This document shows, piece after piece, positions 26,355 to 37,873 of a stretch of DNA of 64,000 bases. The notes under the pieces are model-generated. The model saw nothing but the letters and a program-made list of their open reading frames with translations. It did no database searches and had not been told where the DNA came from. The stretch's first letter is position 1. Every line of letters starts with the position of its first letter. Source of the DNA: Sedimentimonas flavescens (GTDB lineage: Bacteria; Pseudomonadota; Alphaproteobacteria; Rhodobacterales; Rhodobacteraceae). Where the stretch lies: NCBI RefSeq assembly GCF_019264375.1, contig NZ_JAHVAI010000003.1, forward strand, positions 1 through 64,000, written 5' to 3'. Both the position numbers and the translations under genes were made by a program.

Positions 26355-26696
26355 TTACTCAAGCTGCCAGAGCCCGTCAGCCCGTTTGCAGCGTTTGAAT
26401 TCGGCGCGCTGTTGCCCGGCTTTCTCCTGGGTCTCGAAGATATGCGTGATCAGGACGCAACCTTCCTCGACGCCGGTGACCTCGATCGAGCCGCTCGCAC
26501 CGCTGGCCTCGTTTTGCCATGTGCTCTTGTCGCCGGCCTGTACCTCGGGGTTGGTGTAGAGCGCCTCGGACTCGGCAAGCACCGCCTTGATATCGTCGGG
26601 CGTAAGACCCGAATCGCCCAGCATGACCGCCACGCTTTGGGCCTGCGCCATCCCGGAGAGGCCGACAAACACCAGCAGGGAAAGAAGGGATCGCAT
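26355..26696 (-). CDS. Small exported protein resembling the 17-kDa surface antigen C-terminal domain
   Basis: A 113-residue protein with a signal peptide (MRSLLSLLVFVGLSGMAQAQ). The mature part ends in the pattern W-x-N..SGASGSIEV...GCVLITHIFE...GQQRAEFKRCKRADGLW, with two Cys and a terminal W-x-L, as in RT0821/Lpp0805-type surface proteins. The frame is open upstream, but the signal peptide fixes the start. It is 85 bases downstream of the response regulator and may be the last gene of the redox operon or independent. Confidence 0.68.
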   Translation of the reverse strand: MRSLLSLLVFVGLSGMAQAQSVAVMLGDSGLTPDDIKAVLAESEALYTNPEVQAGDKSTWQNEASGASGSIEVTGVEEGCVLITHIFETQEKAGQQRAEFKRCKRADGLWQLE

Positions 26697-26781
26697 TGGA
26701 AAAACTCCGTAGCTGTGGCTCTGAAGTATGCTTAGCCAGAAATGCCGCGGCACACAACGGCAGCGGCTGCCTCGGGCGAAG

Positions 26782-28125
26782 TCAGTTGATCTTGCGCAGG
26801 ATGCGGTAGGTGTTGCGCTCGGAAATCCCGAGTGTCTCGGCCAGTTTCTGGCGGTTACCGCCGTAGCGGTCGAGCAGCAGTTGCAGATAGGCGTCGCGCA
26901 TCTCCTCAAGCGTGGGCGGCGCGGCGAAACGCAGCAGGATGCCGTTGCCACCAGCGGCCTGAGCGCCGGTCTGACCGGCCAGCCCGACATCGGCTGGCAG
27001 AATCTCGGCGCGACCGGCGGACATGATCAGCCCGCGCTCGATCGCGTTGCGCAACTCGCGGATATTGCCCGGCCAGTCATAGCTTTGCAGTGCGGTGCGG
27101 GTTTCGCGCGGCAGAACCTTGTCGACGCCGCGCTGGAACGAGCGGTTCTCAAGCAGGAACTCGGCCAGGGCCGGGATGTCCTGCGCGCGCTCGCGCAGGG
27201 CCGGTACGGCCAGGCTGAGCGCCGAGAGGCGGTAGAACAGCTCGGGGCGGAAGCGGCCCTCGCGCGCGGCGCCTTCGAGGTCGGCGGCGGTGGCCGCGAT
27301 CAGACGCACGGGGCAGGGCAGGGACATGGTCGAACCCTGCGGCCGGTAGCAGCCCTGTTCCATTACGCGCAGCACAGGTGCCTGAAGGGTTAGCGGCAGC
27401 TTCTCGATTTCGTTCAGAAAGACCGTCCCGGCTTCGGCTGCGGCAAAGAGGCCCTCGCGCCGGGTAGAGCCGCTGCCCGGCAGGCTGCCGAACAGATCGG
27501 CCGCGCTCAGCTCGGGGTCGCAGTCGATAGTGACGAAGCGCGCGTTGGCGCGCGGGCTTTGCATGTGGATTGCCTCGGCCACGGCGGTCTTGCCGGTGCC
27601 CGCCTCGCCGCGTAGCAGCACGGGCGCATCCGAGGCCGCCACCAGACCGATCATGCGGCGTAACTCGACCATCACCGGGCTGTCGCCTGTCAGCGTCATC
27701 TGGTCGGCGCGTTGCGCCTTGGCCTGCCAGAACGCCAGATCGCGCCGCAGAGCCGCCGTCTCGAACACACGCCCAAGCGCCAATTCAAGACTGTCGGGTG
27801 AGACCGGCTTGAGCATGTATTCCACCGCCCCCGCCTTGACCGCGCGCACCGCCTGGTCGATCGAGCCGAAGGCCGTCAGGATCACCACCGGGCAGAACTC
27901 GCGCAGTTCGGGCAGGAAGGTCATGCCATCGGTGTCCGGCAGGCGCATGTCGAGGATCGCCAGCGCCGGAGCGAAATAGCCCAACATTTCCAGCGCCTCG
28001 GCGCGCGAGCGCGCGCCGCGTGCGTCATGCCCCAGTTCGACCAGTTGGTCGCAGAGCAGACGGTTCAGGGTGCGGTCGTCCTCGACCACCAGGATCGGGC
28101 GCGGGGCGACGGGGGGAGGTGTCAT
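26782..28125 (-). CDS. NtrC-family response regulator lacking GAFTGA
   Basis: A 447-residue three-domain regulator. The receiver domain has Asp59 as phosphoacceptor and Lys106. The AAA+ domain has Walker A GEAGTGKT (173-180), but after LFG (211-213) the GAFTGA loop that contacts sigma-54 is absent and shortened, reading SLPGSGSTRREGLF. The Walker B Asp is Asn238 (VFLNEI). The C-terminus has a Fis-type helix-turn-helix. Without GAFTGA it probably works with sigma-70, like Rhodobacter NtrC. Its start overlaps the kinase stop by 4 bases. Its likely sites are the twin palindromes at 37797 and 37860. Confidence 0.9.
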   Translation of the reverse strand: MTPPPVAPRPILVVEDDRTLNRLLCDQLVELGHDARGARSRAEALEMLGYFAPALAILDMRLPDTDGMTFLPELREFCPVVILTAFGSIDQAVRAVKAGAVEYMLKPVSPDSLELALGRVFETAALRRDLAFWQAKAQRADQMTLTGDSPVMVELRRMIGLVAASDAPVLLRGEAGTGKTAVAEAIHMQSPRANARFVTIDCDPELSAADLFGSLPGSGSTRREGLFAAAEAGTVFLNEIEKLPLTLQAPVLRVMEQGCYRPQGSTMSLPCPVRLIAATAADLEGAAREGRFRPELFYRLSALSLAVPALRERAQDIPALAEFLLENRSFQRGVDKVLPRETRTALQSYDWPGNIRELRNAIERGLIMSAGRAEILPADVGLAGQTGAQAAGGNGILLRFAAPPTLEEMRDAYLQLLLDRYGGNRQKLAETLGISERNTYRILRKIN

Positions 28126-30032
28126 GGCGGCGTTTCCTGCAAGGGGGTGACATCCGCCTGCGGGACGTCTGGTTCCGGGGTGTCGGGATCGGGGAAGGCC
28201 ACGGTAAAGACCGAGCCTTCCCCGAGGTTGCTTTCAACATCGATCGTTGCGCCGTGACGGTCGAGGATGCCGCGCACGATTGACAGACCAAGTCCGCGGC
28301 CCATGCTGGAATCGGCGCGGCGAGACCAGAAGGGCATGAATATGCGCTCCAGATCGGCGGCGGCGATGCCGATGCCCAGGTCGGAAACCGACAGGCGCAC
28401 CTTGCCCGCCTCGCGCCAGCCGCGCAGCGTGACGATGCCGCCCGTGGGCATCGCATGGAAGGCGTTCATGATCAGGTTCGTCATCAGCATCCGCAGGTCG
28501 GCGTCGGTGGCAATCACCCGCAATCCGGGGGCCAACTCGGTTTGCATCGTGATGCCGCCCTGCTCGGCCTGATAGTTGAGCAACTGCGACACGCCCGAGA
28601 CGACGCGGTCAAGCTCGATCAGTTGGCGGCCCTCGCCGGGCGGGGCGGATAGCATCAGCAGGTTGTCGGTGATCTCGATGCATTTGCCGACCTCGGAGCG
28701 GATCGTGTCGAAATAGGCCCGGGCGCGCTCCGGTCGGCCCTGGTCGAATTCGCGCGCGAGCGCCGCAAGCGCGAGTTCAACCGACGAGAGCGGGTTGAAG
28801 ATCTCATGTGCAACCCCGGCGGCCAGCAGGCCGATCTCGCTCAGCCGTTCCTCTTGCGAGATACGCGCCTGGGTGTCGAGATCGCGGATCGCCTCGACCA
28901 CACAGGGCGATCCATTGCCCGCGAGATCGATCCGCGCCGAACTGACCTCCACCGTGCGCGCGCCGTTGGCGCAATGGTGGCGGTCGCGGAAGGTGACGGC
29001 CGAGGCGCCCTTTTCGATCAGTTCGACCACCGGGCAGGTCACCAGAGTATGCGGGCAGGGGGTGTCGCGACCGTGGCTGGAGGCGTAGCAGAAACTGCCC
29101 GCGACCGTTTCGGGGGCATGTCCGGTTTGCAGGCAATAGGCACGGTTGGCGCGCAGGATGCGGAAGTCGGGGCCGATCACCCGCACACCGTCGGGCAGCG
29201 CATCGAGCAGCGCCTGCAATTCGGCCTCGGAATGCCGTATCGTCGCCAGTTGCGCCTCGATCTGCGAGGACATGCGGTTGAATGTCTGCCCGAGGTCGGC
29301 GATTTCATCGCGCCCGTGCAGATCGAGCCTTGTATCAAGATGGCCTTCGGCCAGCGCGCGGTTGGCGGCGGTCAGCCGTTCGAGCGGCGCGATCACCATG
29401 CGGCGCAGCGCGATCCACATCGCCGCGCTGGCCAGTGTCACGACTGCCATCCCGAGGAGCCCCAGCCAGATTGCGCCGGACAGCGCCTCGCGTCGGATCG
29501 CCCCGGCACGGTAATCCACCACCAGCAGCCCGTTGACCGGATGCTCGGCCGCTTCGCCGTGGCATTGGCGGCACTCGCTGCGGTTCAGCACCGGGTTGAT
29601 CGAGCGCATGGCAACTTCGCCCATGCCGTCGTCAAGGTAGCGAGCGTGGGGCGTGCGGCTTTCCAGCGCATCGCGCAGCGCCGGGCTGTCAAGTCGCTGC
29701 CCGACGCGCGACGGGTCCGATGAGAAGCGCACCTCGAAATCGGGATTGACGATCATCACCCGCTCGATGTCGTCCTGCCGGCCCAAGCCGTCGAGGATCT
29801 GCACAAGGCCGGGAATGTCGCGCTTGAGCATGGCGTTTTCCAGCGCGCCCTGAAGCAGTTCGTTGATCTGGCCGGCCGCGCGGGCGTGCACCGAGATCAT
29901 CTGGTTGCGGTAAAGCGAGCTGAGCACCACGAGAAACAGCGCCGAGACAACGATCAGCAGCCCCCCGAGGGCGAGGATCAGCTTGCGCTGCACCGAGGCA
30001 CCCGCCCAGTGCCGGAACCGGGCCATGATCAT
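28122..30032 (-). CDS. Membrane sensor histidine kinase with periplasmic CXXCH motif
   Basis: A 636-residue kinase: membrane helix 1 (about 17-41), a periplasmic domain of about 145 residues with CRQCH at 154-158, helix 2 (about 186-208), HAMP, a PAS domain (270-380) with four Cys (315, 326, 333, 354), HisKA with His409 in GVAHEIFNPLSS, and an HATPase domain. The CXXCH suggests covalent heme c binding, as in redox- or ligand-sensing kinases of the Tll0287/DUF3365 type. The start at 30032 overlaps the ferredoxin stop (ATGA). It pairs with the overlapping regulator downstream and would report the state of the periplasmic redox chain encoded in the same operon. Confidence 0.9.
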   Translation of the reverse strand: MIMARFRHWAGASVQRKLILALGGLLIVVSALFLVVLSSLYRNQMISVHARAAGQINELLQGALENAMLKRDIPGLVQILDGLGRQDDIERVMIVNPDFEVRFSSDPSRVGQRLDSPALRDALESRTPHARYLDDGMGEVAMRSINPVLNRSECRQCHGEAAEHPVNGLLVVDYRAGAIRREALSGAIWLGLLGMAVVTLASAAMWIALRRMVIAPLERLTAANRALAEGHLDTRLDLHGRDEIADLGQTFNRMSSQIEAQLATIRHSEAELQALLDALPDGVRVIGPDFRILRANRAYCLQTGHAPETVAGSFCYASSHGRDTPCPHTLVTCPVVELIEKGASAVTFRDRHHCANGARTVEVSSARIDLAGNGSPCVVEAIRDLDTQARISQEERLSEIGLLAAGVAHEIFNPLSSVELALAALAREFDQGRPERARAYFDTIRSEVGKCIEITDNLLMLSAPPGEGRQLIELDRVVSGVSQLLNYQAEQGGITMQTELAPGLRVIATDADLRMLMTNLIMNAFHAMPTGGIVTLRGWREAGKVRLSVSDLGIGIAAADLERIFMPFWSRRADSSMGRGLGLSIVRGILDRHGATIDVESNLGEGSVFTVAFPDPDTPEPDVPQADVTPLQETPP

Positions 30033-31018
30033 GGCAGCACCTGAAACAGCTTGCGGTGATGTCCGGTACGACGGCAGACCGGGCAAAGATCGCCCTCGGT
30101 GCCTGCTGGACGATGCGCGGAAGGCTCCTGCACCGATACCCCGCACCCGCAGCAGGCATAGACCTGCAGCGGCACGTCGGGGGGGGCTGGGACCATCGCG
30201 GCTAGTTGCAAGGCATCCTCGTCGCAAACGTCGGCACAGAGCCCGCAGCCGGTGCAGGCCGCAGGCTCGGTCCGGTAGCACAGATCCCCCTGATCGTCTT
30301 TGATACGGATCAGGACCTCGTGTGGACAGATGCACAAACAGGCCCCGCAGCCCGTGCATTTTCCGGCCTCAATGCAGGGAACGGTGGCGAAGAGGCCGGT
30401 ATCGAGGCATGGCTCCGCCTGCAACCGGGCCAGCGCGTCGTTGTGTGTCTCGGGCGCGGCGACGCGTGCAAAGAGGTTGCGGCGCGCGGGGTTTTCTGGG
30501 GCATCGCGCAGGAAAGTGGCGACCTGGCTCCGGCTGGCGGGTGCGATGTCCAGCGCTGCCAACCCGCGGGCCTCGGCCAGCGCCGAAATTTGCGCGACAC
30601 GCGCCGACAGGTCATGCCCCTCGGGGGGCTGGTCGGGGCAGGTTGCGCAATCACCGCTGGCCAGAGCGATCAGGCGCACGCCTGCAGCCCGGAGCGCCGC
30701 AAGATCGTTCAACGAGAGCGCGTGGGCGCAGGGGCGGGCCGCATCGCCTTGCGGGTGGCGCGAGCAGAGCGCCAGGGCAACCTCTGCGCGCTGCGCGACA
30801 ACAGCGGCAGGGCCGGGCAGTGAGAGCGCGCTTTCTGGGCAGGCCGCCACGCAGAGCCCGCAGCCCGAACAGAGTTCAGGCTCAATCCGCAATCCGCCGC
30901 GGATCGGTTCGAGCGCGCCTTGCGGGCAGGCCTCGATGCAGGCCGCGCAGGAACTGGCCGACAGACGGGCCGCAGTGCAACTGCCCGCGGCCAGCCGGGG
31001 CAGGGCGGCGGCTACCAA
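30029..31018 (-). CDS. Multicluster 4Fe-4S ferredoxin-type protein with zinc-ribbon-like tail
   Basis: A 329-residue soluble protein with four ferredoxin cysteine groups: SSCAACIEACPQGA and CSGCGLCVAACPESA near the N-terminus, and CTGCGACLCICP and CTGCGLCADVCDEDA in the C-terminal half. The end carries CCGCG and CPVCRRTGH, a rubredoxin or zinc-ribbon pattern. The start is a TTG at 31018 that overlaps the chaperone stop; no better start exists. It would carry electrons in the cytoplasm or help assemble the molybdoenzyme clusters. Its partner enzyme is inferred from the operon only. Confidence 0.85.
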   Translation of the reverse strand: MVAAALPRLAAGSCTAARLSASSCAACIEACPQGALEPIRGGLRIEPELCSGCGLCVAACPESALSLPGPAAVVAQRAEVALALCSRHPQGDAARPCAHALSLNDLAALRAAGVRLIALASGDCATCPDQPPEGHDLSARVAQISALAEARGLAALDIAPASRSQVATFLRDAPENPARRNLFARVAAPETHNDALARLQAEPCLDTGLFATVPCIEAGKCTGCGACLCICPHEVLIRIKDDQGDLCYRTEPAACTGCGLCADVCDEDALQLAAMVPAPPDVPLQVYACCGCGVSVQEPSAHRPAGTEGDLCPVCRRTGHHRKLFQVLP

Positions 31019-31785
31019 CTCTCGGCCGCTCCGGGAACGAAAGGCGCGGCCTCGGGGTCGGGCTGGCTGGAGGCAGGGACCGCCTTGCGCGGCTGACGCG
31101 CAAGGCCCGTCAGTTCCTCAAGCTGGTCGCGCAGGGCCTCCAGGTAGGCCGCGCAGAGCAGCCCCGCGGCGGCATAGAGCGGCTCGGCCACACGAAGCGC
31201 CATGCGGCGACCGAACTCGGGCACCCAGGGCAGCAGATGCGCGTCAAGGAAATGCGCCGCGTCTGCCATGCCCGCCTCGGTGCCGAGGTTCAGCAGCAGC
31301 CCGAGGAATTGCAGCTCATGCACGATGTGATCATCGGCGCGCTTGCGCCAGTCGGGGACGCTCACGCCGTAATGCGCATACCAGTCGCGCACCTCGAACA
31401 TCGGGCCCTGGCGTTCCAGCTTTTCTTCGGTCAGCCAGACCGAGGCGTTGGGCGCCAGCCGGTAGCCATGGGTCAGAAAGACATCTGCGTAATCGGCGGC
31501 CAGCGCGTCCAGAACGCGGGCGGGAACCGTCTCGGGCAGGTCCGACAGGGCCACACGCAGCACCTGCGACCCCGCTCGCCCCTCAGCCGAAGGCAGCAAC
31601 GCCTCAAATAGATCGGGCGCCTGAATGGCACGTAGCCCGCACAGAAGATCGCTGTCCGCCTCGCGATCAAAGAGGCGGATCAATAGGCCAAGCGCCTCGG
31701 CGGCGGTATCAAGGGTGCCCCGTGCCGTATCAGGGGCGGCACGGGGCAGGGGCGGGGAGGGGAGACTGGTTTGCGGCTTACCCAT
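31012..31785 (-). CDS. TorD/DmsD-family molybdoenzyme chaperone
   Basis: A 257-residue all-helical protein with the family pattern LAADYADVFLTHGYRLAPNAS, then DWYAHYGVSVPDWRKR and DDHIVHELQFLGLLL. Such chaperones bind the Tat signal of the catalytic subunit and hold it until the molybdenum cofactor is inserted. The N-terminal 30 residues are proline-rich. It overlaps the DmsB-like gene by 8 bases at its start and the ferredoxin gene by 7 at its end. Confidence 0.88.
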   Translation of the reverse strand: MGKPQTSLPSPPLPRAAPDTARGTLDTAAEALGLLIRLFDREADSDLLCGLRAIQAPDLFEALLPSAEGRAGSQVLRVALSDLPETVPARVLDALAADYADVFLTHGYRLAPNASVWLTEEKLERQGPMFEVRDWYAHYGVSVPDWRKRADDHIVHELQFLGLLLNLGTEAGMADAAHFLDAHLLPWVPEFGRRMALRVAEPLYAAAGLLCAAYLEALRDQLEELTGLARQPRKAVPASSQPDPEAAPFVPGAAESW

Positions 31786-32446
31786 CGACCCGCCCTTTCG
31801 AATGCGGAATGAACACGATTGAGGGATTGGTCAGTTCCGGGTCGGCCATGGATTTGACCTGCCGCACGACCTCATCGTTCGGCCCGCGTGCTTTCGTCTC
31901 GTAGCTGCCGTCGCGCAGCTGGTCGATCGGCCCGATGTCGAGCACCCGCATCATGCAGGCCGAGACGCAATAGGGTTTGCGCCCCGCCTCCAGCTCGTCG
32001 ATGCACATGTTGCACTTCTTGACGACGTTTTCTTCGGGGTCGAACTGCGGCGCGCCATAGGGGCACGAGGCCTCGCATTTGCGGCACCCGATGCACAGCG
32101 TGGTGTCGATGTCCACCACGCCATTGTCGGGACGCTTGAAGATCGCGCCGGTCGGGCAGGTCGGGATACAGGCCGGCTCCGCGCAATGGTTGCACGACAT
32201 GTTGATCTTGAAGGCGAAGACCTCGGGGAAGGTGCCGCCCTCGATATATTGCACGCGACGAAAGCGCGGACCGGCCGCCAGCCCGTTCTTGTCCTTGCAG
32301 GCGATCTCGCAGGCGCGGCAGCCGATACAATCCACGTTGTTGTGGATAAAGCCGAACTGCTGCTCGGGGACTACGGGGGTGTAGCCCTCGCGCTTGCGCT
32401 TGGCGGCATTGGCCTTGATGGCTTCCTTGTCGATCTTGTTGGCCAT
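31778..32446 (-). CDS. DmsB-like 4Fe-4S electron-transfer subunit
   Basis: A 222-residue subunit with 16 cysteines in the four-cluster arrangement of the DmsB/NrfC/PhsB family: CIGCRACEIACKD, CNHCAEPACIPTCPTGA, CIGCRKCEASCPYGA and CNMCIDELEAG...CVSACMM. The N-terminus is Lys-rich without a signal, so it would be exported together with the Tat-carrying catalytic subunit. It wires the molybdenum subunit to the cytochrome. It lies 15 bases after the catalytic gene. No DmsC-type membrane anchor is encoded; the multiheme cytochrome seems to replace it. Confidence 0.93.
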   Translation of the reverse strand: MANKIDKEAIKANAAKRKREGYTPVVPEQQFGFIHNNVDCIGCRACEIACKDKNGLAAGPRFRRVQYIEGGTFPEVFAFKINMSCNHCAEPACIPTCPTGAIFKRPDNGVVDIDTTLCIGCRKCEASCPYGAPQFDPEENVVKKCNMCIDELEAGRKPYCVSACMMRVLDIGPIDQLRDGSYETKARGPNDEVVRQVKSMADPELTNPSIVFIPHSKGRVDG

Positions 32447-32461
32447 GATGGTTTGCCCCCT

Positions 32462-35026
32462 TTACTGATCGCGCCGGAAGACATGGGAGCGCGCCGTGGC
32501 CAGCTGATCCCATCCGGGGCGGTGATGCAGGTCGGTTTTGCGGATGTCGCACAGCACCGTGTTGTAGGCGAAGGCCCCGGCGGGCGAGGGATCGTCCTTG
32601 GTCAGGAAGTCCGGGTTCCCCGCGCGGTCCACGCCATCCTTGTCGAGGTCCATCCAGGCGCCCTCATGCAGCACCAGAACGCCGGGCATGCAACGCTCGG
32701 TCACATAGACCGGGGTCACCACGCGACCGCGATCGTTCCACAGCTCGACGATGTCGCCATGCTTGATACCCATCCGTTTGGCATCGGCGGCGTTCATCGT
32801 CGTTTCCTGACTGAAGGTCTCGCGCAGCCAGGGGATGTTGTTGAAGATCGAGTGCGTGCGCCAGCGCGGATGCGGGCTGATCAGGTGGAAGGGATAGGTC
32901 TCGGTCAGCGGATGGTTGAGGCTTTCCCAAGGCTCGATCCATTTCGGGATCGCGGGAATCTCATAGCCGTATTGCGTGCGCGTCCAGTCGTCGATCTGCG
33001 CCAGCTGCGAGGACAGGATCTCGATCTTGCCCGAGGGGGTCTGGAATGGCAGGCCCTGCTCGATCTGGGCGCGGAAGGCAACATGCGGCTGCGACAGGAT
33101 GAACTTGTAAACGCCGCGCTTCTTGAACTCTTCCCAGCTCCATTCGACATGCTGGTGGTCTTGCACCTTGTGCCACCAGTCGACCAGATAGGCCTCGTCC
33201 GTGGCATCGGGATTGTCGAAATAGTCGCGCGCGGCCTTCGGGTTGTAGGCCGGGCCGAAGCCAAGGCGCCAGGCAAGCTCGGTATAGACCTGGAAGTCAG
33301 TCTTGCTCTCGCCGAGGGGCTCGATGACCTTCGGGCGGTGGATGTAGTAATGTCCCTTGTACCAGGGCAGGGCGACATCGTGGCGCTCGAAATGGGTGGC
33401 GATGGGCAGCAGGTAGTCGGCCCAGATGCCGGTCGGCGTGATCGTGCTGTCCGAGCAGACCAGAAGGCTTTCGCCCTCGCCCTGCTCATCGAGCTTGCGG
33501 ATCGCCGCGATCTCCTTGTTGATGTTCGTCAGCTGGTTGAACCAGTCCGAGCCCTGCCAAAAGATGCCGCGGATATTCGGTACCACCCCGTCGAACTGGT
33601 CGCTGCGCGGCCACAGACCGGCCTCCTGCCGGGTGACATTGGGGTAATTGAGCACGATATGCGCCCAACGGTCGGACTTGATCGAGGCATACCAGACGTT
33701 GGCATATTGGTCATAGGGATAGGCCACCGCCTCGGAGTGCCAGGCCTTGCCCACGCCCTCGGCGCAGCCGCCGAGGATGCCGATATTGCCGGTCATCGCC
33801 TGAAGCGCTGCGGCCATGCGGTTATATTGCTCGCCATAGGCATTGCGCCCTGGCGCCCAACTGGCTTTGAGTGCGGCGGGCTTGGTGGTGGCGTACATCT
33901 CCGCCAGCTTGCGGATATCCTCGGCCTTCACGCCGCAGATATCGGCGGCCCATTCGGGCGTCTTCGGCACGCCGTCATTGGTGCCAAGGATGTATTCCTT
34001 GAAGCTTTCATGGCCGCGCTGATAGGCCCATTGCGGCGTCGTGCCCGGATCCATGCCCTGTACGAAGCGGTCGATGAAACCCTGATCGTGCCAGCCATTG
34101 TCCCAGATGTGATAGGCCATGCCTGCCATCATCGCGGCATCGGTATTCGGGCGGATCGGGATCCACCAGGCGTCATAGGCGGCGGCCGAGTCGGTATATT
34201 GCGGGTCGATCAGCACGAACTTGCAGCCGCGCTGCTTGGCCATGCGCATGTAGTAGAACGTGTTGCCGCCATGGAAGGTGTAGGCGGGGTTCCAGCCCCA
34301 CATGATGATCAGCTTGGAATGCGCATAGGCGTCATCCTCGTTGCCATCTTCGATCGTGCCGAAGGTCATCCGGCTAGAAAACGTCGTGCCCTGATAGGAG
34401 GGCACCGACCAGCTCGAGGTGCGGCAGCCAAACATACCCAGGAACCGGCCCAACAGCCCCTCGATCTGGTCGGATTTATGCAGAACCCCGTAAGAGGCGC
34501 CCGCATAGGATTGATCCAGCAGGGCCTGCGGCCCGTATTTGTCGCGCAGATAGACCATGCGCTCGGCGATCTCGGTCAGCGCCTGATCCCAGCTGACGCG
34601 CTTGAACTTGCCCTCGCCGCGCTTGCCCACGCGCTTCATCGGATACAGCAGCCGCTCGGGCGAGTAGAGCCGCGAGCGGTAGCTGCGCCCGCGTAGACAG
34701 GCGCGCAGCTGCGGCTTTTCCTCGGTATCGGTGCCATAGGCATCGCCCTGATAGGTGCCGTTGTCGGTGGACAGACGCACGATCACGTCGCCCTTCTTAT
34801 GCGCCACCAGCATGTGCCGCGAGCCGCAGTTATGCGCGCAGGATGTCACGACGGTCTCAAGATCGTCGTCGCGCGGATAGGGCTCGTAGGCGAAGGCATT
34901 GGCCTTGCGCGCGCCCGCGGGCATCACCAGCGCGGTGGCCGCGGTGGCGCTGGCGGTTTGCAGGAACTGGCGCCGGGTGGGGGTGAACAGCCGTGTCCAG
35001 GCTGCGGGGTTGAACCGGGTGGTCAT
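32462..35026 (-). CDS. DmsA-like molybdopterin oxidoreductase, Tat-exported
   Basis: An 854-residue catalytic subunit. It has a Tat signal (TRRQFLQT at 17-24), a cluster-binding motif C63-x3-C67-x3-His71 with C110 in RACLRGRS, and blocks shared with E. coli DmsA (YPMKRVGKRGEGKF, DPQYTDSAAAYDAWWIPIRP, TPSGKIEI, WNDRGRV). The third cluster ligand, Cys in DmsA, is His here. Ser210 aligns with the molybdenum-ligand serine of DmsA. The ATG at 35026 with GGAGAG is preferred over a GTG at 35044. It would act in the periplasm on an oxyanion, S-oxide or N-oxide, or work as a dehydrogenase; the substrate is undetermined. Confidence 0.92.
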   Translation of the reverse strand: MTTRFNPAAWTRLFTPTRRQFLQTASATAATALVMPAGARKANAFAYEPYPRDDDLETVVTSCAHNCGSRHMLVAHKKGDVIVRLSTDNGTYQGDAYGTDTEEKPQLRACLRGRSYRSRLYSPERLLYPMKRVGKRGEGKFKRVSWDQALTEIAERMVYLRDKYGPQALLDQSYAGASYGVLHKSDQIEGLLGRFLGMFGCRTSSWSVPSYQGTTFSSRMTFGTIEDGNEDDAYAHSKLIIMWGWNPAYTFHGGNTFYYMRMAKQRGCKFVLIDPQYTDSAAAYDAWWIPIRPNTDAAMMAGMAYHIWDNGWHDQGFIDRFVQGMDPGTTPQWAYQRGHESFKEYILGTNDGVPKTPEWAADICGVKAEDIRKLAEMYATTKPAALKASWAPGRNAYGEQYNRMAAALQAMTGNIGILGGCAEGVGKAWHSEAVAYPYDQYANVWYASIKSDRWAHIVLNYPNVTRQEAGLWPRSDQFDGVVPNIRGIFWQGSDWFNQLTNINKEIAAIRKLDEQGEGESLLVCSDSTITPTGIWADYLLPIATHFERHDVALPWYKGHYYIHRPKVIEPLGESKTDFQVYTELAWRLGFGPAYNPKAARDYFDNPDATDEAYLVDWWHKVQDHQHVEWSWEEFKKRGVYKFILSQPHVAFRAQIEQGLPFQTPSGKIEILSSQLAQIDDWTRTQYGYEIPAIPKWIEPWESLNHPLTETYPFHLISPHPRWRTHSIFNNIPWLRETFSQETTMNAADAKRMGIKHGDIVELWNDRGRVVTPVYVTERCMPGVLVLHEGAWMDLDKDGVDRAGNPDFLTKDDPSPAGAFAYNTVLCDIRKTDLHHRPGWDQLATARSHVFRRDQ

Positions 35027-35040
35027 GGTTCTGCTCTCCT

Positions 35041-36513
35041 TCACTCGGCAGTTTCGGGCAGACGGTATTTCTCGTCCGAGGCGGTGGGGCGGTCAGCAGC
35101 CCAGGCGGGGGTCTCGGGGTCCATTCCGGGCCAGGGATGCCGGGCATAGGGATACGAGATCCGATACCAGGCGCGCCCGCCGTGGCAGCCGTAGCAGGTG
35201 TCCGACGAGACCTCCTGCGCCAGTGCCTCGATATTGGCGGCGTTGAGGTAGCTCACGTTGTGCCGGTTGGTGCGGAACAACTCGTTATGGCAGCTCAGGC
35301 AGCCATTCGCGGTCGCCGGATCGGTGGGGTCTTCCATATCGCCGCGCACCTCGTGCCACGGACCGCCGAGGCCCATGATCTCGACCGGGTCGGGCATCGC
35401 GCCATGGCAACGCAGACAGGTGGTCTCGGGGTTGACCATCTTGCGGTTGGTGAACTCGGGGCTGGCCGAGGCGCTCAAGAAGGGGCGGCCCGGCATCATG
35501 TCGGGGCTTTCCTCGCGCGGGTCGTTGCCCTGGTGGCAGAAATTGCACTGCAGGTTCATCACCTCTTGCGCGAAATCGCTTTGCAGGTGGCGCCAGTGCA
35601 GGTCGGCCTGCGGGCCTGTGTAGGTATCCAGCGTCTGATACCAGGCCAGGCTCGTCTCGGCCTGCACCCCGGCGGGGCTTTCCTCGCGCGGCTTGGCATC
35701 GGTGATTTCCTGGTGACACACGAGGCATTCGGCGTTCGAGGTCGTCTCGATGCGCGGCGGGAAATGGATCGGGTGATAGCGCGCCTCGTCGTAGCTGAGG
35801 CCTTCGACCTCGGCCTCAAGGGCCGCAACACGCGCGGCGATCTCGGCCTGCTGCTCGGCGCTCGGCGCGGGCGGGTTGGTGAAGGGGGTTTGCGCGATCT
35901 CGGGCGTCTCGGGGGCGGGTGCCTCGGTCGCGGCCGGCGCTTCGGATGACGCCGCATCTGACTGCGCGAAGGGCAGATCGCCCGGCGCGATCGGCGCATC
36001 GCTCTGGGCGGCAAGCCAGGCGATCAGGTTGTGCCGATCAGCGGTTTTGGACAGGCCGGCAAAGGCCATCGAGGTGCCGGGGACCATCTCTTTTGGCTTG
36101 GTCAGATACTGGTCGAGCCGCTCGGGGCTCCAGACCTCATTTGCCTGACCCTGCATGGCCTCGGAATAGGAGAAGCCCGCAGCCGAGGCCACGGGACGCG
36201 CGACGATGTTCCAGAGGTTCGGACCGGTGCGAGCGGCGCCGCCCTGATCCGCCGTATGGCAGGCGGCGCATTTCTTGAAGACCTTGGCGCCAGCCTCGGG
36301 GTCGAGCGCGGCGACCTGAGCCTCGACCGGTGCCGGGTCGGTCGCGGATGCGGTTTGGGACGGCGCGGCCTCGGCCGTCGCCTTCGGCGCGCTGGCCGGT
36401 TCATCAACTGAAATCGAGTAAAGCAAGGCGCCGACGGCATTCAAAGCCACCAGCGACGTGGAACCGAGCAATACGCCGAATGCCAGACCGAGAATGGATT
36501 CGAGTTTCGTCAT
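35041..36513 (-). CDS. Membrane-anchored cytochrome: class I heme domain fused to a pentaheme domain
   Basis: A 490-residue cytochrome. An N-terminal helix (about 7-34) anchors it; a class I cytochrome c domain follows (CAACH at 82-86, Met ligand candidate near 144-149). After a Pro/Ala/Glu linker (170-230) comes a multiheme domain with CLVCH (263), CNFCH (323), CLRCH (366), CLSCH (405) and CYGCH (440), so six heme sites in total. PREESP occurs twice, hinting at internal duplication. It ends 15 bases before the molybdoenzyme start and probably exchanges electrons between it and the respiratory chain (bc1 or cytochrome c), replacing a quinol-oxidising DmsC subunit. Confidence 0.92.
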   Translation of the reverse strand: MTKLESILGLAFGVLLGSTSLVALNAVGALLYSISVDEPASAPKATAEAAPSQTASATDPAPVEAQVAALDPEAGAKVFKKCAACHTADQGGAARTGPNLWNIVARPVASAAGFSYSEAMQGQANEVWSPERLDQYLTKPKEMVPGTSMAFAGLSKTADRHNLIAWLAAQSDAPIAPGDLPFAQSDAASSEAPAATEAPAPETPEIAQTPFTNPPAPSAEQQAEIAARVAALEAEVEGLSYDEARYHPIHFPPRIETTSNAECLVCHQEITDAKPREESPAGVQAETSLAWYQTLDTYTGPQADLHWRHLQSDFAQEVMNLQCNFCHQGNDPREESPDMMPGRPFLSASASPEFTNRKMVNPETTCLRCHGAMPDPVEIMGLGGPWHEVRGDMEDPTDPATANGCLSCHNELFRTNRHNVSYLNAANIEALAQEVSSDTCYGCHGGRAWYRISYPYARHPWPGMDPETPAWAADRPTASDEKYRLPETAE

Positions 36514-36541
36514 CGCAGGCTATCCGTGCAAGAGGAGGTGC

Positions 36542-36561
36542 GGGAGGCGCGAACGCCTCCC
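36542..36561 (-). terminator. Stem-loop with TTCG loop between the repeat protein and the cytochrome
   Basis: On the minus strand GGGAGGCG-TTCG-CGCCTCCC gives a perfect 8-bp stem with a tetraloop, 20 bases past the repeat-protein stop and 29 bases before the cytochrome start. No U-run follows. It may stabilise the upstream mRNA or partly terminate, so that the Met-rich protein is made in excess over the redox enzymes. Confidence 0.5.
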
Positions 36562-36580
36562 ACGATTGGCAAGGCGTGGG

Positions 36581-37207
36581 TTACTTGGCCATGAACGAGG
36601 TGCAGACCCAGCCGTCACCCATGCCGCTCATGCCCGACATTCCGCTCATACCGGACATGCCACCCATGCCGCTCATGCCTGACATGCCGCCCATACCGGA
36701 CATCCCCGACATTCCGTCCATGCCGCTCATGCCCGACATACCGCCCATACCGGACATTCCGTCCATGCCGCTCATGCCCGACATGCCGCCCATACCGGAC
36801 ATGCCACCCATGCCGCTCATGCCCGACATACCGCCCATACCGGACATTCCGTCCATGCCGCTCATGCCCGACATACCGCCCATACCGGACATACCACCCA
36901 TGCCGCTCATGCCCGACATGCCGCCCATACCGGACATGCCGCCCATACCGGACATTCCCGACATGCCGCTCATGCCTTGCATTGCGGGTGCGTAGGTCCA
37001 CTGCACGCAGACGCCTTCGCCGCCGGCCATACCGCTCATGCCCGACATTCCGCTCATACCGGACATGCCACCCATACCGGACATGCCCGACATGCCGCCC
37101 ATACCGGACATACCGCTCATACCCGACATGCTGTCGGCCAGTGCCACGCCGCCGACGGCGCCAGCGCACAGCAGGATGGCCAGAGCTCCCTTAACCATAG
37201 CTTTCAT
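36581..37207 (-). CDS. Exported Met-Ser-Gly tripeptide-repeat protein
   Basis: A 208-residue protein with a signal peptide (residues 1-24, ending GVALA) and a mature part made almost wholly of Met-x-Gly triplets (x = Ser, Gly or Asp): 12 triplets at 27-62, a spacer GEGVCVQWTYAPA (63-75), 41 triplets at 76-198, and a tail GWVCTSFMAK. More than a quarter of the residues are Met. The spacer and tail share the pattern G-x-G-(W)-V-C followed by an aromatic, so the protein looks like two modules, each a repeat block closed by a Cys motif. Its place in the operon, before the hexaheme cytochrome, suggests a periplasmic Cu/heme-binding, redox-buffering or structural role. No known family is recognised. 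Confidence 0.8.
   Translation of the reverse strand: MKAMVKGALAILLCAGAVGGVALADSMSGMSGMSGMGGMSGMSGMGGMSGMSGMSGMSGMAGGEGVCVQWTYAPAMQGMSGMSGMSGMGGMSGMGGMSGMSGMGGMSGMGGMSGMSGMDGMSGMGGMSGMSGMGGMSGMGGMSGMSGMDGMSGMGGMSGMSGMDGMSGMSGMGGMSGMSGMGGMSGMSGMSGMSGMGDGWVCTSFMAK
36614..36982 (-). repeat. Tandem DNA repeat encoding the long Met-x-Gly block
   Basis: The 369-base stretch codes for 41 Met-x-Gly triplets. A 9-base triplet-group and a larger 45-base unit (encoding MDGMSGMGGMSGMSG or a close variant) recur nearly unchanged, most clearly around 36715-36895. Such near-identical DNA is prone to slipped-strand length change, so repeat number may vary among strains. It is coding sequence and not a CRISPR: there are no unique spacers. 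Confidence 0.85.
37022..37129 (-). repeat. Tandem DNA repeat encoding the short Met-x-Gly block
   Basis: 108 bases encoding 12 Met-x-Gly triplets immediately after the signal peptide. The same codons are used as in the long block, suggesting that both arose by duplication of a single module together with the Cys-containing spacer. Confidence 0.8.
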
Positions 37208-37260
37208 TTCACTCTCCTTGGTGATGGCCGCTCACGGGGTTGCCCGTCAGGGCCTGTTGC

Positions 37261-37276
37261 CCGGGGAACCCCCCGG
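37261..37276 (-). other. Leader stem-loop before the repeat-protein gene
   Basis: CCGGGG-GGTT-CCCCGG (minus strand) forms a 6-bp stem with a 4-base loop between the first gene of the operon and the repeat-protein gene. It may be an mRNA processing or stability element. Confidence 0.3.
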
Positions 37277-37299
37277 ATGGGCAGCGCCGCGCGCCGCTC

Positions 37300-37656
37300 T
37301 CATTCGATGTCGTGCCAGTGCCGCAGGTCGTAAGGCCCGGTCATTCCGGGATGGATGAAGGGGTTGAACCAGGCGCCCTGATCGTCGAGCCATGCGAGGA
37401 TGGTCGGGGGGACCGGGGTCTCGATCCCGTGGATCGCGTTTTCCTGCCAGGCGGCGTCGGGCGTGAATTGCACGATGGCCGGTGCACCCTCGGGGCGCGC
37501 GCTTGATGCGACACCGGCGATAAATCCGGTCGCGTCCTGCGAATGTGCTGCGGGAACCACGGCTATACCGAGGCCTGATGCGAGACCGGTGATCACCAGA
37601 GACCGGATGAGTTGTTTGGGCTTGGTCGATTTCGGGTTGGCCGCAGGACAGGTCAT
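37300..37656 (-). CDS. Small exported protein, first gene of the redox operon
   Basis: A 118-residue protein with a basic N-region (MTCPAANPKSTKPKQLIR), a hydrophobic segment (SLVITGLASGLGIAVVPAAHS) and a probable cleavage after AHS. The mature part is short, rich in Trp, His and Pro, and ends HPGMTGPYDLRHWHDIE, with three His near the C-terminus that could bind metal or heme. A GTG at 37665 is an alternative start; the ATG has AGTGAG upstream. It matches no family I know. It is the promoter-proximal gene under the twin palindromes. Confidence 0.7.
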   Translation of the reverse strand: MTCPAANPKSTKPKQLIRSLVITGLASGLGIAVVPAAHSQDATGFIAGVASSARPEGAPAIVQFTPDAAWQENAIHGIETPVPPTILAWLDDQGAWFNPFIHPGMTGPYDLRHWHDIE

Positions 37657-37796
37657 TGCACTCACTTTCGCTGGGGCCCGGCCTTTGTATTCAGAGGTCC
37701 AGGCTGGCAGCGAGACCTTAGCAAAAGATCATGCGCGAATGAGTATTAAGTCTTTAAATACAGTGTCTTGACTGGCTTGCGTGGGGGATTCTGGGC

Positions 37797-37873
37797 TGCC
37801 AATTTGGCACGCTGCGTCGCGGCATCGCGCGACCCGGCCAAGATAGCGCGGCGCGATCCTGCCAATTTGGCAG
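37797..37873. promoter_or_regulatory. Twin 13-bp palindromes, candidate upstream activator sites of the redox operon
   Basis: TGCCAATTTGGCA occurs twice, at 37797-37809 and 37860-37872; each is a perfect 6-1-6 inverted repeat, and the second extends to 7-1-7. The centres are 63 bp apart, six helical turns, so two dimers would bind on the same face. They lie about 140-215 bases upstream of the first gene of the operon, the usual place for sites of NtrC-family activators. The operon encodes such a regulator as its last signalling gene, which makes it the natural candidate. I could not find a good sigma-54 -24/-12 element downstream. Confidence 0.7.

Follow-up and report, generated by a model that had tools for sequence, protein, structure and literature searches.

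A Nine-Gene Operon Pairing a DMSO Reductase Relative with a Gly-Met-X Repeat Protein in Sedimentimonas flavescens: A Possible Periplasmic Methionine-Cycling System

What does a relative of dimethyl sulfoxide (DMSO) reductase act on when it is encoded together with a multiheme c-type cytochrome and a protein built of Gly-Met-X (GMX) triplets? The question is raised by a nine-gene operon on the minus strand of Sedimentimonas flavescens contig NZ_JAHVAI010000003.1, at positions 26782-37665 of its first 64,000 nucleotides, a stretch that as a whole is called the window here. An initial annotation of this DNA held that the substrate was not predictable. Such a view now appears too pessimistic, because the GMX protein is so tied to the enzyme that its methionine sulfoxide (MetO) becomes a specific candidate. 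We give a probability of roughly 45% to the reading that the operon encodes a periplasmic methionine-cycling, that is, oxidant-buffering, system like MrpX/YedYZ, built from DmsAB and a pentaheme cytochrome, in which both the substrate and the direction are putative.

The GMX protein of the window consists of a signal-like N terminus followed by a (Gly-Met-X)n array and contains 56 methionines in 208 residues; in its relatives the count reaches 104. It is a system-specific partner of the enzyme. Among 398 genomes of the phylum, a pattern of six repeat units is matched 11-74 times in every one of the 5 genomes that have the enzyme, own genome included, whereas 1-4 hits, never above 4, are found in 10 of the other 393, and it is this difference that ties the protein to the system. 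Where a relative of the sulfoxide reductases is tied to a protein of methionine repeats, the simplest assumption is that the enzyme acts on the sulfoxide of that protein. DorA reduces protein-bound MetO, and DmsA has been suggested to do so (PMC7402097), while perchlorate reducers cycle the Met-rich peptide MrpX with the molybdoenzyme YedYZ (PMC4623255, PMC8692401).

In the proposed mechanism, hypohalous acids, peroxide or peroxynitrite would turn the GMX methionines into sulfoxides, which DmsAB would reduce back with electrons passing from the respiratory chain to a class I cytochrome c, then to the pentaheme cytochrome and finally to DmsAB. A single GMX molecule, with 56 methionines in the window's protein and up to ~100 in relatives, would offer a large sink that can be recharged, its thioethers taking up oxidising equivalents that correspond to two electrons per methionine. 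The heme-motif kinase would detect the redox or oxidant state and switch the operon on through paired operators. The gene set as a whole suggests an undescribed way of absorbing oxidants in the cell envelope and recycling the absorber. A broader proposal, somewhat less probable, sees in the (Gly-Met-X)n proteins a new kind of redox buffer for the envelope, in which a triplet-repeat rod would be recharged by a dedicated His-FS0 branch of the DMSO reductases via a c-type cytochrome relay under a heme-motif kinase. If this is true, methionine cycling in the periplasm would have been invented twice, independently. The DMSO reductases would gain a separate branch with an altered FS0 motif and, although substrates in this family are often a matter of guesswork, a partner substrate that can be tested; dedicated methionine-repeat proteins would, it is suggested, buffer oxidants in free-living and symbiotic proteobacteria. 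The parts of the system belong to known families in a new combination; one protein type appears to be new, and the cluster motif is altered.

The features of the locus are given below, the genes in 5'→3' order.

37860..37872, unstranded: inverted repeat TGCCAAATTGGCA, proposed as operator 2 of the regulator, 63 bp away from operator 1
37797..37809, unstranded: inverted repeat TGCCAAATTGGCA, proposed as operator 1 of the regulator
37300..37665, minus: orf121, a small protein with a signal-like N terminus, first operon gene, present in 37/39 loci with enough upstream DNA
36581..37207, minus: GMX repeat protein, signal-like N terminus and (Gly-Met-X)n, 208 aa, 56 Met
35041..36513, minus: cytochrome with an N-terminal helix (putative anchor), a class I c552-like domain (~aa 71-170) and a pentaheme domain
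32462..35044, minus: DmsA-like molybdenum bis-pyranopterin guanine dinucleotide (Mo-bisPGD) catalytic subunit, twin-arginine signal (read by eye), in-frame ATG at 35026
31778..32446, minus: DmsB-like subunit, 16 Cys in four quartets (counted in the translation), TIGR02951 198.5 bits, cut-off 214.1
31012..31785, minus: TorD/DmsD-type chaperone, PF02613
30029..31018, minus: multicluster ferredoxin with Fer4 domains and without a signal, putative accessory role
28122..30032, minus: histidine kinase with an extracytoplasmic part bearing one CXXCH, HAMP, PAS, HisKA and HATPase, start as annotated in the plasmid homologue
26782..28125, minus: NtrC-type response regulator without GAFTGA

The nine genes thus lie in one direction and in the order given by the initial annotation, and the close spacing it described is also found: the last five junctions are tight, and four of them (DmsB/TorD, TorD/ferredoxin, ferredoxin/kinase, and kinase/regulator) are overlaps of 4-8 bases. 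The cytochrome and DmsA genes overlap by 4 bases only with GTG 35044 as the start and do not overlap with ATG 35026. The range proposed for the system, 26355-37873, holds at its high end, which coincides with the second upstream palindrome, while the low end (26355-26781) lies outside; the small open reading frame (ORF) located there was rejected as a part of the system, having no match in any of the 80 relatives described next. The first gene, orf121, has no Pfam or NCBIfam match.

Relatives were collected by a scan of genome contigs, which gave 323 stretches encoding a relative; the best 80 were kept, with 76-86% identity in the best segment of the catalytic subunit. By title, these loci are mostly from alpha-, beta- and gammaproteobacteria, and the few ill-fitting titles, such as Exiguobacterium (L015) and Desulfobulbus (L057), all belong to metagenome-assembled genomes. 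The presence of each gene was assessed by tblastn with the window's proteins among those loci whose DNA extends far enough on the side in question; the kinase and regulator were accepted at any position on the locus. The cytochrome is found in 56/56 loci, DmsB in 79/79 and TorD in 72/73, followed by the ferredoxin (52/69), the kinase (47/61) and the regulator (40/53). The gene order is kept across the loci, and any other ORF cluster is common to at most 12 of them. Such conservation over 80 loci rules out chance, and the genes stay together in all three of the classes named.

A GMX array is present in 37 of the 42 loci with at least 2.8 kb of upstream DNA (36/42 by a stricter pattern, which misses L047), the other 38 of the 80 having too little upstream DNA to be counted, and arrays are found in three classes. 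The array changes length, since the protein has 244 residues on plasmid pEJ01 (see below) against 208 in the window. In genome G023 the pattern is matched 20 times on the forward and 54 times on the reverse strand, so that a second array may be present there. The literature searched, which mostly excludes subscription journals, yielded no description of the cassette and none of the GMX protein (one unrelated match), and the available parts of a nitric-oxide reactor study give no account of the cassette (PMC10390337).

It is necessary to consider here a role for the GMX protein that does not involve sulfoxides. Methionine-rich proteins often bind Cu(I), and the GMX protein might accordingly be a chaperone or store of copper or another soft metal, the molybdoenzyme system serving a co-controlled metal-stress or respiratory function. 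We regard this as quite improbable, because the strict GMX triplet is unlike the usual Met/His copper motifs, the shared ORF clusters that were scanned contain no recognised copper gene, and the specific pairing is with a sulfoxide-reductase relative.

The similarity of the operon to MrpX-YedYZ is a likeness in working, not in descent. In both cases an exported Met-rich protein is paired with a molybdoenzyme and has its own regulation (PMC4623255), and in both it is genetically tied to the enzyme, though here in the 37 of 42 loci. On the other hand, the present molybdoenzyme belongs to the DMSO reductase family (PF00384/PF01568) and is not a YedY/MsrP homologue, MsrP being encoded elsewhere in the genome; the electrons would pass here through iron-sulfur clusters and c-type hemes; the Met-rich protein is made of GMX triplet repeats; and control is by a two-component system in place of SigF/NrsF. 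The same comparison can be turned to another account, namely a respiratory reductase of a high-potential oxyanion or N-/S-oxide, with cytochrome c as the donor; the GMX protein would then play the part of MrpX in perchlorate reducers and give protection from reactive by-products. In thermodynamic terms, acceptors of this kind are readily reduced by cytochrome c. Perchlorate reducers are guarded by a Met-rich peptide (PMC4623255, PMC8692401), and DMSO reductase genes of Shewanella are, by the titles of two reports, needed for iodate and bromate reduction (PMC9048795, PMC9468665). We nevertheless consider this account rather unlikely, as the occurrence of the operon is broad and sporadic and neither a chlorite dismutase nor a peroxidase could be recognised in the scanned set of shared ORF clusters, of which clusters 11 and 12 gave no match and in which cld was not searched for as such.

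The catalytic subunits form a single clade beside DmsA/YnfE/YnfF, with a long stem (2.7), a shallow crown and a Shimodaira-Hasegawa-like approximate likelihood ratio (SH-aLRT) support of 100, in a tree of 59 rows of which 32 are from the family. The tree was built by a quick method after the removal of six long rows and does not settle the branching between the clade and its sister row L100; it contains no TtrA, SerA, PcrA, ClrA, DdhA or PhsA rows, these enzymes being compared by hidden Markov model score only, where a model exists. Family searches of 120 and 60 genomes found no reference sequences for the type II enzymes or PhsA, the controls being silent in the 60. The best NCBIfam match is the DmsA/YnfE model TIGR02166 (611.5 bits, below the cut-off of 777.7), followed by the BisC family as the next-nearest group, while the type II model TIGR03479 (213 bits, cut-off 984.75), PhsA (198) and TtrA (81) score low. 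The identity to E. coli DmsA is 37%. Since the genes stay together and the enzyme falls in a separate clade, the finding that could have spoken against the initial annotation, an enzyme inside a known clade with unconserved neighbours, is not what is observed.

The FS0 motif of the family is C-x3-C-x3-H, with His77 present in 81/81 aligned members, the window's included. The third position is Cys in E. coli DmsA, YnfE and YnfF, and Cys116 is kept here as the fourth; from its position, His77 is a predicted cluster ligand. Ser216, likewise present in 81/81 members, aligns with the Ser of DmsA, YnfE, TorA and TorZ in the column that we take to hold the Mo ligand. In subfamily II (NarG, EbdA, PcrA and kin), the FS0 histidine stands at the first ligand position. 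Here it stands at the third, the Mo-ligand column has Ser and the TIGR03479 match is weak (213 bits), so that the likeness looks convergent; judged from these sequences, histidine in FS0 arose here in another branch than subfamily II. Subfamily II is described as having a conserved histidine among the FS0 ligands and shares with this system the high-potential heme partners (PMC8840923), and DmsA is listed among the Ser-coordinating enzymes (PMC10100899).

Compared with DmsABC/YnfEFGH, the DMSO and selenate reductases, the operon thus has homologous catalytic and four-cluster subunits, a TorD/DmsD-type chaperone and Ser at the Mo-ligand column. The differences are that its enzyme forms a separate clade with FS0 CxxxCxxxH in place of CxxxCxxxC, that neither subunit reaches its family cut-off (611.5 of 777.7 and 198.5 of 214.1 bits), that DmsC is not found and that a pentaheme cytochrome, the GMX protein and a two-component system are added. 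The sister enzyme L100, 43% identical, has the usual all-cysteine FS0 and an in-frame TGA near its end, and its 5.2 kb contain no match to the window's other operon proteins. A structure model of the catalytic subunit reached a mean predicted local distance difference test (pLDDT) score of 47 from a 27-sequence alignment that was too uniform, and was not used.

How would electrons reach, or leave, such an enzyme? In agreement with the initial annotation, no membrane DmsC subunit was found: PF04976 detected none in the operon or in the genome, with a positive control in E. coli, in a search that did not extend to NrfD-type anchors. The electron passage via a c-type cytochrome that had been proposed is plausible. 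The cytochrome had been described as hexaheme, and the window's protein indeed has six CXXCH motifs; it is, however, composed of a class I c552/CycM-type domain and a pentaheme domain, and among 74 cluster members six motifs are present in only 21, the window's included, against five in 52 and four in 1. The sixth motif sits in the N-terminal class I domain, which is a relative of Paracoccus c552 and of the cytochrome to which arsenite oxidase natively passes its electrons (8ed4). In the structure model of the cytochrome (pLDDT 72), class I cytochrome c matches appear among the best 50 of 126, with nothing on the pentaheme part. The latter has no sequence relative in the PDB (one match, E 0.38) and is not of the NapC/NirT type (PF03264 15.6 bits, below the cut-off of 24.1). 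At some loci without the fusion, a separate class I cytochrome is encoded, as in L050 and L080 after the regulator, and cluster 10 is such a cytochrome in 10 gammaproteobacterial loci (one member scanned). Being fused or separately encoded nearby, a class I cytochrome is the probable working partner of the system. TorCA and DorCA also have a molybdoenzyme fed by a membrane-anchored multiheme cytochrome, and TorA and DorA are not known to have a DmsB. They differ in that the operon cytochrome is not of the NapC/NirT type and that TorA and DorA are without FS0 (PMC10100899).

The class I cytochrome, fused in 21/74 cytochromes or encoded near the cassette, would also suit a periplasmic dehydrogenase, in which DmsAB would oxidise a small reduced compound (a thioether, or a sulfur or metalloid species) and the electrons would pass through the pentaheme and class I cytochromes to cytochrome c oxidase, with the GMX protein as a binder or protective protein. 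The resemblance of the fused domain to cytochrome c552, including the arsenite oxidase acceptor, is consistent with this, and the FS0 histidine has its parallel in subfamily II, home of the ethylbenzene and dimethylsulfide dehydrogenases (PMC8840923). Such a function is unlikely in our view, because the named families closest to the enzyme reduce sulfoxides and selenate, the system-specific GMX protein is left unexplained, and soxB is found no more often alongside the operon than across the window's family. It occurs in 32/49 operon-bearing genomes, chosen by us from the 80 loci, and in 139/218 genomes of the family, two samples of different taxonomy; the former share being no higher, no soxB association is seen. 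Sulfur oxidation as a role was rejected on the same count, although many loci come from sulfur oxidisers. A study of lucinid symbionts reports genes annotated dmsAB near soxY-S1c, possibly of this cassette's enzyme family (PMC11237559).

Returning to methionine cycling, several points weigh against it. Class I cytochromes c have a high potential, and MetO reduction from such a donor may be uphill; a high-potential cytochrome c partner suits a dehydrogenase or a high-potential acceptor at least equally. Five loci (L046, L066, L069, L076 and L081) keep the enzyme without a GMX array, and the GMX protein could thus not be the sole substrate everywhere. MsrP, an existing MetO repair enzyme, is encoded in the own genome and in 30/49 relatives, the methionine repeats could be copper binders instead, and the DmsA-like model is too poor for viewing the active site. 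Furthermore, protein-bound MetO was shown not to be reduced by BisC or by TorZ/MtsZ, and DmsA accepts a single MetO stereoisomer (PMC7402097). It is on account of the array-less loci, the BisC/TorZ data, the presence of MsrP and the high-potential cytochrome that methionine cycling is held at the probability given above. A replacement of MsrP by the system was considered and rejected, MsrP co-occurring in the own genome and in the 30/49, a count without a background rate. In 12 gammaproteobacterial loci, mostly Thiodiazotropha, a thioredoxin and NHL-repeat lipoprotein closes the cassette (e.g., L064:6848-8443; one member scanned), which fits a protein-redox role.

The kinase and regulator are as the initial annotation described them: a CXXCH is present in the extracytoplasmic part of the kinase, where it is kept in 54/58 cluster members, and GAFTGA is absent from the regulator. 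The exact palindromes at 37797-37809 and 37860-37872 constitute two sites, or four matches counting both strands, where 0.07 are expected; no further exact copy exists in the 3.38 Mb genome, which has three other places with one mismatch. A motif TG[AC]CA-N3-TG[TG]CA lies upstream of orf121 in 26/41 loci, while 200 single-base shuffles give a mean of 0.075 and a largest value of 2, and successive repeats are spaced by 63-69 bp in 11/16 cases. These repeats are the proposed operators, to which the regulator would bind. A sigma-54 promoter motif is found in 20/41 upstream regions (shuffle mean 0.115). Of the 31 loci for which both the regulator and upstream DNA are available, it is present in 16/20 whose regulator has GAFTGA, GSFTGA or GAFTDA and in 0/11 whose regulator lacks such a motif; the Fisher p of 1.6e-5 overstates the case if, as may be, the 11, nearly all Rhodobacterales by title, reflect one event. 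Because paired inverted repeats precede the operon and the sigma-54 motif tracks GAFTGA, the two-component system probably serves the operon. NtrC of Rhodobacter capsulatus has lost GAFTGA and works with sigma-70 promoters, and the same deletion is found in other Rhodobacterales (PMC10274813); a second regulator, besides NtrC, seems to have gone the same way. The regulators represent a natural rewiring series, in which GAFTGA and the sigma-54 promoter are absent together and the operators persist. In seven gammaproteobacterial loci the kinase and regulator lie divergently upstream.

The operon is sporadic, being present in 8/295 genomes of the window's family, and the enzyme is present in 5/398 genomes across the phylum, where 21 more match only at ≤43% identity. 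Among its carriers are the environmental isolates Rhodovulum imhoffii DSM 18064, Defluviimonas denitrificans DSM 18921 and Rhodobacter xanthinilyticus LPB0142. Three betaproteobacterial loci, L066, L069 and L076, keep the enzyme with no GMX array and no ferredoxin match; their kinase and regulator are missing or, in L076, located elsewhere and without CXXCH. In a plasmid collection, 1 of 966 matching records exceeds 60% identity to the catalytic subunit. A closely related operon lies on the conjugative plasmid pEJ01 of Rhodobacter xanthinilyticus (L155), with a catalytic protein 98.8% identical to that of the window and DNA 89% identical over 12.1 kb. The plasmid is of the MOBP and MPF_T types, and IS21 and IS1380 genes are located within the same 26.5 kb as the operon.

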